Shown here piece by piece: positions 13,643 to 19,967 of a DNA stretch of 64,000 bases. A model generated the notes under the pieces. That model saw only the letters and a program-made list of their open reading frames with translations. It searched no databases and was not told the DNA's origin. This DNA is from Beijerinckia indica subsp. indica ATCC 9039. Lineage in GTDB: Bacteria; Pseudomonadota; Alphaproteobacteria; Rhizobiales; Beijerinckiaceae. A program made the position numbers and the translations under genes. The stretch is from assembly GCF_000019845.1 (NCBI RefSeq), contig NC_010581.1, positions 3,665,501 through 3,729,500 of the forward strand, in the 5' to 3' direction. The stretch's first letter is position 1. Every line of letters begins with the position of its first letter.

Positions 13643-15586
13643 TTAAGCGACTTTTTGATCGATCTTCCGACGGCGCCATTGCGGCCAAACCGGCATGAGA
13701 GGATTGCGCGATGGGACAGATTGTTCTGTCGGCTCCTCCGCCAACAACGCCTGAATGAGGGTCTGCATCTGGGGAAAGGTCAAGGGTTTCGGCAAAAAGC
13801 GGTCGAAACCGGCGGCGAGCGCGGCCTGTTTGTCTTCCTCCAGGCCATTGGCGCTCATCGCAACCAGAACATTCGGCTTCGCCGCGATGAGATGCTCGGC
13901 TTGACGTATGCGGCGGGCGGTTTCGAGACCATCAAGCCCCGGCATGCGGATATCGAGGAACAAAGCGATAAAAGGCAAAGTATCGCCATCGCAGGTCCGC
14001 AGGAAACGCTCGAGCGCCGTGAGCCCGTCCCCCACGCGCTCCACCGCGACGCCCAAACTTTCGAGATAACGGGTAGTGAGCAGAGCACTGATATCATTAT
14101 CCTCGGCGAGCAGCACGCGCGGCGGCGCGGGCGTCACGGCGCAGTCTTTCGTCGCGCAAGCCTGACAATCGTCAAGACAGCGTTCGAGGCAGGCAAACAG
14201 TGAGGCGGCGCGCACCGGCTTAATCAGCCAGCCGTCATAACCCGGCACCAAGCCGCCCCGCAGGGCTTGCCGTTCGAAAGGCGAAAACATGAGGAGGGAA
14301 TGAGCGAGCCCCGCCCTCGCTCCGGTCTCGACCAGACGGCGGGCCAGGTCCGCTCCAAGGCTGATGTCTGCGATGAGAAAATCCGGACGAAAGTCCCCCT
14401 CGCCCCCTTGTGCCAGAAGAGCCAACGCCGCGCTTTCCGACGTGGCGAGGCGGGCATCAGCGCCAGCCTCGATCAAACGTTCGCGAAGAGCGGCGCCGGT
14501 AAAGGGGCCGTCGGTAACGATCACAACCGCATGCCCGGCATAACGGCCCGGCCGGACCCGCAAGGGCTGAGGCTCGCCCTCCACGCGCAGCGGTAGAGAG
14601 AAGGAAAACAGGGCCCCACCCTCTAGAGGCGACGCGAGATGGAGAGAGCCGCCCATGCGCTCCACGAGCCGTTTCGAAATGGCAAGACCGAGGCCCGTGC
14701 CGCTTTCGCACCCCTTTTGAGTCCCTTGTTCAAAATCCTGGAAAATGGTTTCGCGGCAAGTAGGGGGCACACCCGGTCCCGTATCGATCACCTCGAAACA
14801 CAGGCTATCGGCGCTCTCGCGAAACACTTTCACCCCAATGCCGCCCTGCTCGGTGAATTTGACCGCATTACCGGCAAGATTGAGCAGAACCTGACGCAGG
14901 CGCAAAGGATCGCCAACGAGCGTTTCCGGCACGTCGAGCGCGATGGAACTGGCAATATCCAATCCCTTGCCCTGGGCCTTGGGCGCAAGCAATTCGGTCA
15001 CACCCTCGACGAGGGGAGAGATGCCGAACGGCTCCTCGGCGAGAATCATCTTGCCGGCTTCGATTTTGGAAAAATCCAACAGCGCATCGGTCAGGGAGGC
15101 GAGGGCCGAGCCTGAGCCCCGGATCGCCTCAACATAGTTTTTTTGCTCAGGCGTCAGGCCAGTGGCGAGCAAAAGTTCGGTCAAGCCAAGGATGCCGTTG
15201 ATGGGCGTGCGGATCTCATGGCTGATCTTGGCGAAGAATTCCGTCTTGGCCGCGTGAGTGGCCTCGGCCTGTTCTTCTTGGGCCTGCGCGCACTGGCTTT
15301 CCCAGACGGCATCCTGCCAGGCTTCCTCCCGCGCCCAATCCCGGTCTTCCTCGCCCCTATCCGATGCAGCGCATGTTTCCCTGTCACCCTTGTTGGCAGC
15401 CATCGGCAACAAGGGGCTTGGAAGCGCGTCAGGGACTAACTGGGGTAGAGCGACACGCCTATTCTGCTCGCTCGCCTGCCTAATAATCGCGAAAACAGTT
15501 CCCATAAACAGCGCACCGCCGCCGCCGCAAACGACGACAGCGAGAAAGATGGTCATGAAATCATCGATATGCGAAGGCCCGGTCAT
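13643..15586 (-). CDS. Hybrid sensor histidine kinase with two receiver domains
   Basis: Membrane-anchored hybrid kinase, 647 aa. One N-terminal membrane segment is visible (about residues 9-35), then a short linker with no recognised sensor domain. The HisKA H-box [17 protein letters not shown] carries H123; N-box [11 protein letters not shown]1 DTGPGVP and G2 [12 protein letters not shown] follow. A first receiver-like domain (about 350-470) has an aspartate in IADISLG but lacks a clear acidic pocket and may be degenerate. The second (about 490-610) is complete, with LLAEDND, phospho-acceptor D545 in LDIRMPG, and a KPL lysine. There is no HPt domain, so phosphate must pass to a separate protein. 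It is a HisKA-type kinase, not the HWE/HisKA2 type that usually acts on PhyR, so its closeness to phyR does not make it the PhyR kinase. Confidence 0.9.
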
Positions 15587-15942
15587 AATGACGCAATCTT
15601 TCTTCCGATGCTTCCGGAATATTGCGTATGATTTTACGAGCGGAAGGCTTGTGATTTCCTTGTGCAAAAGATGAAAAATGATCGTAAACGACAATGATCA
15701 TCGATCGATCTCATATGCACGGATCAAGGCGCCCTTGAACGCTCACCGCAGCACATACACAACGCACTTTCTGACTCGTCGGATTTTCGCCCAAAACCAC
15801 ACGCTTTCTTCACAGCGATCGGCACGCCATTCCCATGGAGTCTCAGGGTGGGACATGATGTCTCCCTCTTGATAACCCGTACCGAAAACATGCGTGAAAA
15901 TACAGCGGATGCAGAGGGAAAGAGCACCCAAAAAAGGCCAAG
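15587..15942. other. Intergenic region upstream of the stress gene group
   Basis: Between the hybrid kinase start and the EcfG-type promoter at 15943. Short frames on both strands have no family resemblance and no good ribosome-binding sites. The kinase promoter should lie in the left part. Confidence 0.4.
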
Positions 15943-17310: not shown

Positions 17311-18152
17311 TCACCCCACCGCAACCGGCGCCCGCGGTATCCCCGTGCGGTGTGATTTGCGATCGAAGAACAAGGCCTGGCTGATCACGGCCTTAAGACT
17401 ATCGACGCCAAAGGGCTTGGTGACGAGGAAGGCCGGCTCCGGCGGCGCCCCGGTCAAGAACCGTTCTGGATAAGCCGTGATGAAAATCACGGGAACGGAA
17501 CAATCGCCAAGAATCTGATTGACCGCCTCAAGGCCGGAACTGCCATCGGCGAGCTGGATATCGGCGAGAATGAGACCGGGGCGTTCCTTGGCCACGGCTT
17601 CCAAGGCCTCACGATGTGTGCGCGCCACGCCGACGACGCGATGGCCGAGCTCCTCGACCAATGTCTGGAGATCGAGGGCGATGAAAGGCTCATCCTCGAT
17701 GATCAACACATTGGTGCGGATCTGCTGGGTGATTTCCTTGCTCGCGGTATCGATCAGACTGGCCGCTTCCTGCGTCGAACAATCGAGCGCGCGCGCCACT
17801 TCTTCTGTCTTGAAGCCTTCCAGCGCGCTCAGCAGAAAGGCGATGCGCGGACGCAGGGTAATGGCGTCAAGATTGCGCCGCGCCCCCTGTTCATCACTTA
17901 CAAATTCAAACTGATCGACATGCTCATTGACGGGCATTGAGCCCCAAACCTTCAAGAACAGGCGATAAAGGGAAACCCGCAAATCCGCGCCAGCCGCATC
18001 CTTAGCCCCCTTCCCCAAGGCTGAAGGGTCGGCGACGATCGCCTCCAGCGTTGCCAGGACATAAGCATCGCCGCCGGCCTGATCCCGCTCAAGGCACGGG
18101 AAAACCGGCGCAGATAGGGAATATAGGAAGAAATGGCTTGCGATATGGACAT
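17311..18152 (-). pseudogene. phyR: phyR: general stress response regulator, apparently frameshifted
   Basis: PhyR is the anti-anti-sigma factor of the alphaproteobacterial stress response: when phosphorylated, its sigma-like domain sequesters NepR and frees EcfG. The true N-terminus starts at ATG 18152 (AGGGG upstream) as MSISQAISSYIPYLRRFSRALSG. After codon 23 the frame is lost: the DNA reads TTG-AGC-GGG-ATC-AGG, whereas one extra base would give DQAGGDAYVLATLEAIVADPSALGKG and continue through YRLFLKVWG. The rest is intact in the other frame: sigma-like region, then a receiver with IIEDEP, phospho-acceptor Asp in ILADIQLADG, ITAYPERF and VTKPFG. With one base restored the protein would be 280 aa, normal for PhyR. 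The cause could be a real mutation or a base-calling error in a GGG run. As written, no full-length PhyR is made. Confidence 0.85.
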
Positions 18153-18330
18153 GAAAAACCCCTGACCTCGCGCCCTGGCGTGGTTCGAGCTACGACCGAT
18201 TTTGCCCGCCTTCGCGCGGAAACGATGCTGCCCTGAATTTCAATGATATACGCCAACCTCTCGCGGTTTGCTTCTCGAAATTTGCTTGGGTGACGAAATC
18301 TCGGCGGGCACCTCGCACAGCTTCGCCCTC

Positions 18331-18355
18331 AATGCAAAAGCCCCAAAAAAGTTCC
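18331..18355 (-). promoter_or_regulatory. Possible EcfG-type promoter for phyR (imperfect)
   Basis: On the minus strand GGAAC (18355-18351) is followed after 16 bases by CATT rather than CGTT. It lies 180 bases before phyR and is back-to-back with the exact promoter on the other strand; the two GGAAC boxes form an inverted repeat separated by 7 bases. Confidence 0.35.
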
Positions 18356-18362
18356 TTTTGAC

Positions 18363-18387
18363 GGAACCTTACAAGATGGTGAGCGTT
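18363..18387 (+). promoter_or_regulatory. EcfG-type promoter facing nepR-ecfG
   Basis: GGAAC (18363-18367), a 16-base spacer and CGTT (18384-18387): an exact consensus match, on the nepR-ecfG strand. Autoregulation of nepR-ecfG by EcfG is usual in this clade. The distance to nepR is large (about 565 bases). Confidence 0.7.
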
Positions 18388-18654: not shown

Positions 18655-18951
18655 TATATAAAGCATGGAAAACCTTCGTGATGCGGATAGCCTCCGATCC
18701 ATAAGCGGGTTCGACGATAGACGCAAAAATCAGTCGAGGAAGCGCGGCGGCGAGACGCGACGGTAAGCCCCAAGATCGATCATGAGGGATGATGTCGAAT
18801 GGATCTGTGACAAAGCCCCGCCTGCGGCAACGACCGCGCCCCGGTTTTCCACCGCATGCGAACGGGGGCGGCAACAGACCAGGGGATCTCGTCTCAAGAG
18901 CCATTCTACCAAGGGCCGCCAGATCATGATCGGCAAATCAAAGGTAATCCA

Positions 18952-19296
18952 GTGAATCAGACAGGCAAAGCGGGCATTTCTCCGAACTCTCGGGAGGATG
19001 ATGCGGAGACGGAAGACGTTGAAAACCGTGCCGTGGCCGCTTCGGAACCAGTCGAGTTGAAACAGAATCCGGGGCCTTCAACCACCGTGACGCCCGGATC
19101 GGTCCAACCGTTTCCGATCCATCCCGGGATTCACGCGTCGAAACCGACTTTCGCGGATCAGATCGGCAAGGGCTTGCGCATGGTTTATGACGATGTTCTC
19201 GCGCAACCCGTCCCCGATCGTTTCCTCGATCTGTTGCAAGCCTTGGAAAACAAAGTCGACGAGTCGACGGACAAGACGGAAAAGGAGAAGCCGTGA
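18952..19296 (+). CDS. nepR: NepR anti-sigma factor
   Basis: Anti-sigma factor that holds EcfG inactive until phosphorylated PhyR binds it. It is 114 aa from GTG 18952, which has AAGG eight bases upstream; a longer frame from 18856 lacks a ribosome-binding site. The NepR core is near the C-terminus: IGKGLRMVYDDVLAQPVPDRFLDLLQAL, the two helices that contact the sigma factor. The first 60 residues are polar and probably disordered. Its stop codon overlaps the start of ecfG (GTGA), so the two are translationally coupled. Confidence 0.93.
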   Translation: MNQTGKAGISPNSREDDAETEDVENRAVAASEPVELKQNPGPSTTVTPGSVQPFPIHPGIHASKPTFADQIGKGLRMVYDDVLAQPVPDRFLDLLQALENKVDESTDKTEKEKP

Positions 19297-19967
19297 GCGA
19301 TCCTTCCGTGCCGGGCGTGCCCGCGTCTGCCTCCCCCACGACGCTTGCATCCGCGTCTTCTCCATCTGCGTCTCCTGCATCCACGTCTCCTACTGTGGCC
19401 AGCCGGCAGATGACCTCCGATCTCATCGCGGTCATTCCCAATCTACGCGCCTTCGCGGTCTCGCTCTGCGGCAATCTCGACCGCGCCGACGATCTCGTGC
19501 AGGAAACCCTGGTCAAGGCCTGGAGCAATCTCGATTCCTTCGTCGAGGGCACCAATCTGCGCGCCTGGCTGTTCACCATTTTGCGCAATATCTATTATTC
19601 CGAATATCGCAAAAGGCGGCGTGAGGTGGCCGATTCCGATGGGGCGATCGCGGCCAAACTGGCGACGGCGCCAGCCCAGAACGGTCATATGGATCTGCTC
19701 GATTTCCGCGAGGCGCTCCAGCAATTGCCGCATGACCAGCGCGAAGCCCTGATTTTGATTGGCGCCTCTGGCCTTTCCTACGAGGAAGCCGCCAATATTT
19801 GCGGCTGCGCCGTCGGAACCATGAAAAGCCGCGTGAACCGGGCGCGGGGCCGGCTTGCCGATCTCCTGTCGATTTCCTCAGCGGCCGAATTTGGAGATGA
19901 TGGAGACTGGCAAGCCGCCGATCCGAGCCTCATTGGCCAGCATTATTCCCGCGCCGGCAACGATTGA
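19293..19967 (+). CDS. ecfG: EcfG-type ECF sigma factor of the general stress response
   Basis: Directs RNA polymerase to GGAAC-N-CGTT promoters. It is 224 aa. Region 2 is about residues 45-110 (LIAVIPNLRAFAVSLCGNLDRADDLVQETLVKAW, then RAWLFTILRN), and region 4 about 135-190 (LLDFREALQQLPHDQREALIL, SYEEAANICGCAVGTMKSRVNRAR). The N-terminal 38 residues are an Ala/Ser/Pro/Thr-rich extension encoded by short imperfect DNA repeats and absent from most family members. The start is GTG 19293, overlapping the nepR stop. Confidence 0.95.
   Translation: MSDPSVPGVPASASPTTLASASSPSASPASTSPTVASRQMTSDLIAVIPNLRAFAVSLCGNLDRADDLVQETLVKAWSNLDSFVEGTNLRAWLFTILRNIYYSEYRKRRREVADSDGAIAAKLATAPAQNGHMDLLDFREALQQLPHDQREALILIGASGLSYEEAANICGCAVGTMKSRVNRARGRLADLLSISSAAEFGDDGDWQAADPSLIGQHYSRAGND

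Follow-up and report, generated by a model that had tools for sequence, protein, structure and literature searches.

In the model of the general stress response outlined in PMC8103513 and PMC5898713, PhyR that has been phosphorylated captures NepR with its sigma-like domain, which sets EcfG free, and PhyR loci are generally divergent from nepR-ecfG (PMC8103513). Members of the PhyR family (NCBIfam NF006623; PDB 4g97, 3n0r, 5uxw, 4qic) combine a sigma-like with a receiver domain.

Interrupted coding sequences, conserved genes that are split by one base and otherwise undecayed, are known from other deposited genomes, and two sets have been resequenced. As outlined in the respective reports, sequence errors explained 28 of 73 interrupted genes of M. 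smegmatis and the other 45 were not errors (PMC1852416), while in V. fischeri 75 of 82 suspect loci, which had been chosen as likely errors through comparison with a conspecific strain, contained errors (PMC2330054). Our literature search found no work joining Beijerinckia indica with the general stress response and, among titles and abstract openings, no report of phyR loss.

Here, we characterize the phyR locus of Beijerinckia indica subsp. indica ATCC 9039 within a stretch of 64,000 nucleotides (contig NC_010581.1, positions 3,665,501 to 3,729,500; hereafter the window). We show that phyR as deposited carries a frame break, is present in a single copy next to open partner genes, and lacks signs of decay. 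The gene appears to have been ordinary and intact at least until very recently, and we give about an even chance to the reading that the shortfall is a base-calling or assembly error, which we regard as slightly likelier than a mutation.

Results

The phyR gene is split over two frames on the minus strand, one base short near codon 23 (Table 1), as the original prediction had stated. The frame opened by ATG 18152 encodes the PhyR N-terminus (MSISQAISSYIPYLRRFSRALSG) followed by unrelated residues, 66 in total, and stops at TGA 17954-17952. The remainder, from QAGGDAYVLATLEAIVADPSAL as far as the receiver domain, lies in a downstream frame that is free of stops from 18189 to 17314, and reading this frame revealed no further stop or frame break within phyR; its first ATG, GTG or TTG codon is the TTG at 18018, which opens a 235-aa ORF. 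When PhyR of B. mobilis was used as a tblastn query, the window answered with two pieces in separate frames, covering residues 1-23 at 91% identity and residues 21-283 at 78%. The frameshift is therefore confirmed as real in the sequence as given. Counted as codons, without building a joined sequence, the 23 upstream and 256 downstream codons (from 18081) are compatible with the continuous 280-aa PhyR that restoring one base had been predicted to yield.

Table 1. Features of the phyR-nepR-ecfG locus, in positions of the window
Feature	Position	Strand	Remarks
phyR N-terminal ORF	17952..18152	-	23 native and 43 out-of-frame residues; PF22029 (PhyR_sigma2) 21.8 bits, residues 7-25, cut-off 27
One-base shortfall	18081..18086	-	end of codon 23 and following bases; exact base indeterminable by alignment
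Rest of phyR, other frame	17314..18081	-	PF22029 positions 15-54, sigma4-like PF22233, receiver PF00072
235-aa ORF from TTG 18018	17311..18018	-	form in the protein database (P0001); passes NCBIfam NF006623, model positions 1-47 of 258 unmatched
Possible restart product, 208 residues, ATG 17937	17311..17937	-	14 nt past the stop of the N-terminal ORF; putative restart
nepR, anti-sigma factor, open frame	18856..19296	+	PF18557 52.9 bits
ecfG, general-stress sigma factor, open frame	19293..19967	+	PF04542, PF08281; dN 0.08 vs dS 1.1 to B. mobilis
EcfG-type promoter match (GGAACC...CGTT), upstream of nepR-ecfG	18363..18387	+	pattern match
GGAAC...GCATTG element, upstream of phyR; possible EcfG-type phyR promoter	18328..18355	-	kept in B. 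mobilis

The break had been placed more precisely, in a GGG run at 18082-18084. The neighbourhood of codon 23 holds, but the run itself lies two bases away, at 18086-18084, and the placement is not unique. The codon directly after the glycine codon of this run encodes Asn at position 24 of B. mobilis PhyR, and among 119 database PhyR proteins this position is T in 48, S in 45, N in 14 and D in 7, the five unscored ones being shorter predictions that lack the stretch. Because the residue after the glycine varies, the GGG run is not singled out as the break site; the alignment does not fix the exact base, and the shortfall could lie at any of several neighbouring bases. Reads with four G residues in the run, proposed as the refuting observation, are thus too narrow a test, as the missing base could be a neighbouring one. 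The site is also without a long homopolymer, the longest run between 18060 and 18110 being one of four T at another place.

Taken jointly, the two pieces cover the sigma-like and receiver domains as in the PhyR family, and the solved PhyR sequences are matched by the downstream piece; the difference is that here the pieces are in two frames, so that no single product as written holds the whole sigma-like domain with its sigma2- and sigma4-like parts. The ATG product matches only positions 1-19 of the 55 of PF22029, under the cut-off, and the 235-aa ORF matches PF22233 with no Pfam match to PF22029, whose remaining positions were recovered in the downstream frame by a profile search of the genome. 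The receiver domain (53.5 bits) has its phospho-acceptor site, and the receiver columns EDEP, ADIQLADGSSG, TA and KP are invariant in all 28 rows of our alignment, the window row included. Against the NCBIfam PhyR model the 235-aa remainder scores 281.7 bits (cut-off 240). Since the sigma2-like part (residues 9-69 of B. mobilis PhyR) is cut after residue 23, phyR as written is expected to have lost the capture of NepR.

Comparison with phyR of relatives, which had been recommended, found the N-terminus in frame with the best-scoring stretch in 80 of 80 fetched loci, searched by tblastn with the B. mobilis query (a set that includes B. mobilis, the source of that query), the best-scoring frame reaching query residue 6 or lower in every one. 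Across the family, a PhyR match at E <= 1e-40 is present in 168 of 199 genomes, and in all 149 non-window rows inspected by eye, among the 150 rows listed, the match starts at residue 1-4. Two rows from single-contig assemblies contain an internal stop (G063:C1:2886158-2886937, TAA; G189:C1:1991890-1992675, TAG, a second copy in that genome), and a third match ends early, at residue 238 (G035:C1:2349951-2350637). Broken or shortened PhyR rows are thus rare in the family, yet not unknown. In the protein database (8000 candidates sharing most words were scored, of which 6429 passed), no second phyR allele of the same species occurred among the 120 matches listed, where the next best after the 235-aa protein of the window had 84% identity; the database cluster of the window protein has three members. 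Five database PhyR proteins of relatives (P0015, P0038, P0076 with 243 aa, P0036 and P0067) are also without the N-terminal stretch, four of them starting at 'VLATLE', which may reflect start miscalling or further frame breaks.

The age of the break was addressed by comparing substitution in phyR of B. indica and B. mobilis. Codons 1-23 gave pS 0.41 and pN 0.04, the 21 codons from the break to TTG 18018 gave 0.59 and 0.07, the next 100 codons 0.77 and 0.16, and the receiver 0.59 and 0.11; the control gene ecfG gave 0.58 and 0.08. Both sides of the break therefore look like constrained coding sequence, and because the 21 constrained codons precede the start of the 235-aa ORF, it was the full phyR frame that was in use. 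The 235-aa part was also aligned with 25 outgroup rows, excluding the near-identical row P0006. Of 168 columns that at least 80% of the outgroup rows conserve, 6 differ in the window only, 8 in B. mobilis only and 6 in both; of the 109 columns with full conservation, 0 differ in the window only and 2 in B. mobilis only. At the 90% level the window has four differences, three of which are at columns 48-50, where its start was called, and have the look of an alignment artefact. As phyR shows no further decay, the break is either very recent or not real, and selection acted on the full frame until very recently.

To set the break against the background of the assembly, we compared 400 kb of the B. 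indica genome with 400 kb of that of B. mobilis, matching 138 non-overlapping ORFs over 45,158 aligned codons, 41 of them (13,539 codons) in the window. Candidate breaks numbered seven on the B. indica side (forward rows) and five on the B. mobilis side (reverse rows) when shadow ORFs were included, and three and one after removal of overlaps; only the forward rows were interpreted. The sole frame break confirmed among the 138 genes is that of phyR. An ffh-like candidate was rejected since its frame change lies upstream of the conserved MFEGLS start and hence outside the gene, and another, near C3:3566535-3566967, runs into the end of an adjacent gene that aligns in full. The sample also contained 13 partial matches, two being phyR and the C3:3566535-3566967 case. 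Three more (218557, 163430, 366448) have the gene proper in one frame, two (231374, 200570) represent no convincing gene, and in the other six the N-terminal part is unmatched, where a break in the diverged stretch is possible. No other confirmed break in 45,158 codons makes the error rate of the assembly look low, for a method that is blind to breaks near gene ends and in genes without a B. mobilis match. A single confirmed event over about 135 kb of aligned coding DNA is as compatible with a low error rate as with a few fresh mutations.

The rest of the switch is in place. As had been predicted, nepR and ecfG are both open and pass their Pfam cut-offs, nepR scoring under the NCBIfam NepR cut-off (26.9 vs 100); a profile search found one NepR in the genome, that of the window. 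The phyR gene adjoins nepR-ecfG in divergent orientation, as PhyR loci generally do. Upstream of nepR-ecfG lies a match to GGAACC...CGTT, which we take to be the EcfG promoter consensus; the window contains nine such matches where chance would give 5.45, so that this one is weak by itself and stands out only by its position. The GGAAC...GCATTG element upstream of phyR, possibly also an EcfG-type motif, is matched in 10 of 143 loci, every one a stretch of the B. indica genome or of B. mobilis, the sequences from which the pattern itself was drawn. The genome encodes four kinases of the HWE type, the type usual for PhyR kinases, one of them on contig C2. Near phyR, at 13646-15694 of the window, lies a hybrid histidine kinase (HisKA, HATPase, receiver) of the HisKA and not the HWE type.

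A second PhyR, which the original prediction had suggested might exist elsewhere, was not found in the closed genome (4,418,616 bases, 3 contigs) by a protein search (10 matches) or by profile searches with both PhyR sigma-like families. The other protein matches cover the receiver part alone, or with little before it, at 25-35% identity. Besides phyR and ecfG, both sigma-like families match only C3:1273365-1273901 (27.1 and 28.4 in the genome scan against a cut-off of 27; 26.0 and 26.5, just under it, as a protein), which we rejected as a second PhyR because it encodes an ECF-type sigma protein of 179 aa that has no receiver domain. At 1e-8, this protein is matched in 42 of 99 family genomes, a count that includes its own; a relative in B. 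mobilis stands at 64%, and those elsewhere in the family are more distant. The 288-aa ORF that follows it could be an anti-sigma factor; its assignment as a membrane anti-sigma factor was made by eye only and was set aside, the Pfam zinc-finger score being 12.3 bits against a cut-off of 22.2.

Co-occurrence of PhyR and NepR was assessed by comparing the lists for the 199 family genomes by eye. All 168 genomes with a PhyR match at 1e-40 also have NepR, 26 have neither, and five (G007, G031, G153, G159 and G168; completeness 83-100%, 150-870 contigs) have NepR only. In G159, PhyR is in fact present, spanning a scaffold gap of N. G168 has NepR and a PhyR whose receiver part is interrupted by a gap of about 25 residues and changes frame (G168:C117:16200-17400); this genome is a draft of 150 contigs, in which an assembly error is possible. 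In the fragmented genomes G007, G031 and G153, where NepR is accompanied only by receiver-type PhyR matches at E 1e-10 or weaker, either contig gaps or true PhyR loss may be responsible. The five genomes make it too strong to say that PhyR and NepR are always retained or lost together. A NepR that lacks a working PhyR is rare in the family, though not without possible further cases, and the family pattern is for that reason just a mild argument for a sequence error.

Discussion

With its orthologues unbroken and its remaining sequence undecayed, B. indica phyR belongs among the interrupted coding sequences. The published examples were resequenced, whereas this one is known from the deposited sequence alone, in which a fresh mutation and an error leave identical traces and are not separable. 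The alternatives set out in the original prediction, assembly error or loss in this strain, were the right ones, and we hold them to be nearly even.

An error, to which we give the even chance stated above, would mean that the cell has the base and only the record lacks it. The 80 fetched loci in frame, the constrained codons on both sides of the break, the lack of decay, the co-occurrence of PhyR with NepR and the errors that resequencing uncovered in M. smegmatis and V. fischeri argue for it; the site without a long homopolymer, the low background of frame breaks, the 45 of 73 M. smegmatis cases that were not errors and the further cases of NepR without a working PhyR argue against it. The five NepR-only genomes brought our estimate for an error down from slightly above even to even, and raised that for a true mutation slightly, to just below even. 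If the shortfall is an error, the PhyR-NepR-EcfG partner switch of the strain would be normal: stress would lead a kinase to phosphorylate the PhyR receiver domain, the sigma-like domain would be freed and bind NepR, and EcfG would be released.

Alternatively, and with a probability a little short of one half, the loss of the base is genuine and very recent and arose in the stock that was sequenced, perhaps while it was passaged in a culture collection. Without a working PhyR, EcfG would stay bound to NepR and the general stress response would be uninducible, with growth in culture unharmed or favoured. The deposited closed sequence reads that way, the 400-kb sample yielded no second confirmed frame break, a recent event predicts the absence of decay that was seen, and G168 pairs NepR with a gapped and frame-changed PhyR. 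In M. extorquens, phyR mutants are obtainable and stress-sensitive, according to the outline given in PMC4814048. Against such a loss stand its rarity in a family where PhyR accompanies NepR in 168 of 199 genomes, and the many comparable cases that resequencing exposed as errors, as the outlines in PMC1852416 and PMC2330054 report.

It is very improbable that the break is real and that a shortened PhyR, begun at TTG 18018 or restarted at ATG 17937, has a role of its own, such as kinase binding without NepR binding. Both starts exist, the second close behind the stop of the N-terminal ORF, and the sigma4-like part and receiver are present. However, the constrained codons between the break and TTG 18018 would be in neither product, no ribosome-binding site was seen at TTG 18018, the N-terminus is in frame in all fetched loci, and the products would be without most of the sigma2-like domain, or all of it in the case of ATG 17937. 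Programmed frameshifting or slippage that joins the frames into a full-length PhyR is less probable still: both frames are open over the site, but inspection by eye with the motif rules for slippery heptamers found neither such a heptamer nor a long run there, and the split, seen in 0 of the 80 fetched loci, is not conserved in relatives.

Either way, the matter is a local one. The 235-aa remainder passes the PhyR model, so that model-based annotation would call a PhyR without warning and hide the break. If the shortfall is an error, the deposited record needs correction. If instead, as we judge only slightly less than evenly probable, one recent base loss really did deprive the strain of PhyR, then NepR, EcfG, the divergent promoter region and four HWE-type kinases would have been kept in a strain, natural or derived in the stock, with its general stress response locked off. 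Such a condition would be of the same kind as rpoS loss in laboratory enterobacteria, and measurements of stress physiology in this reference strain would be unrepresentative of the species.
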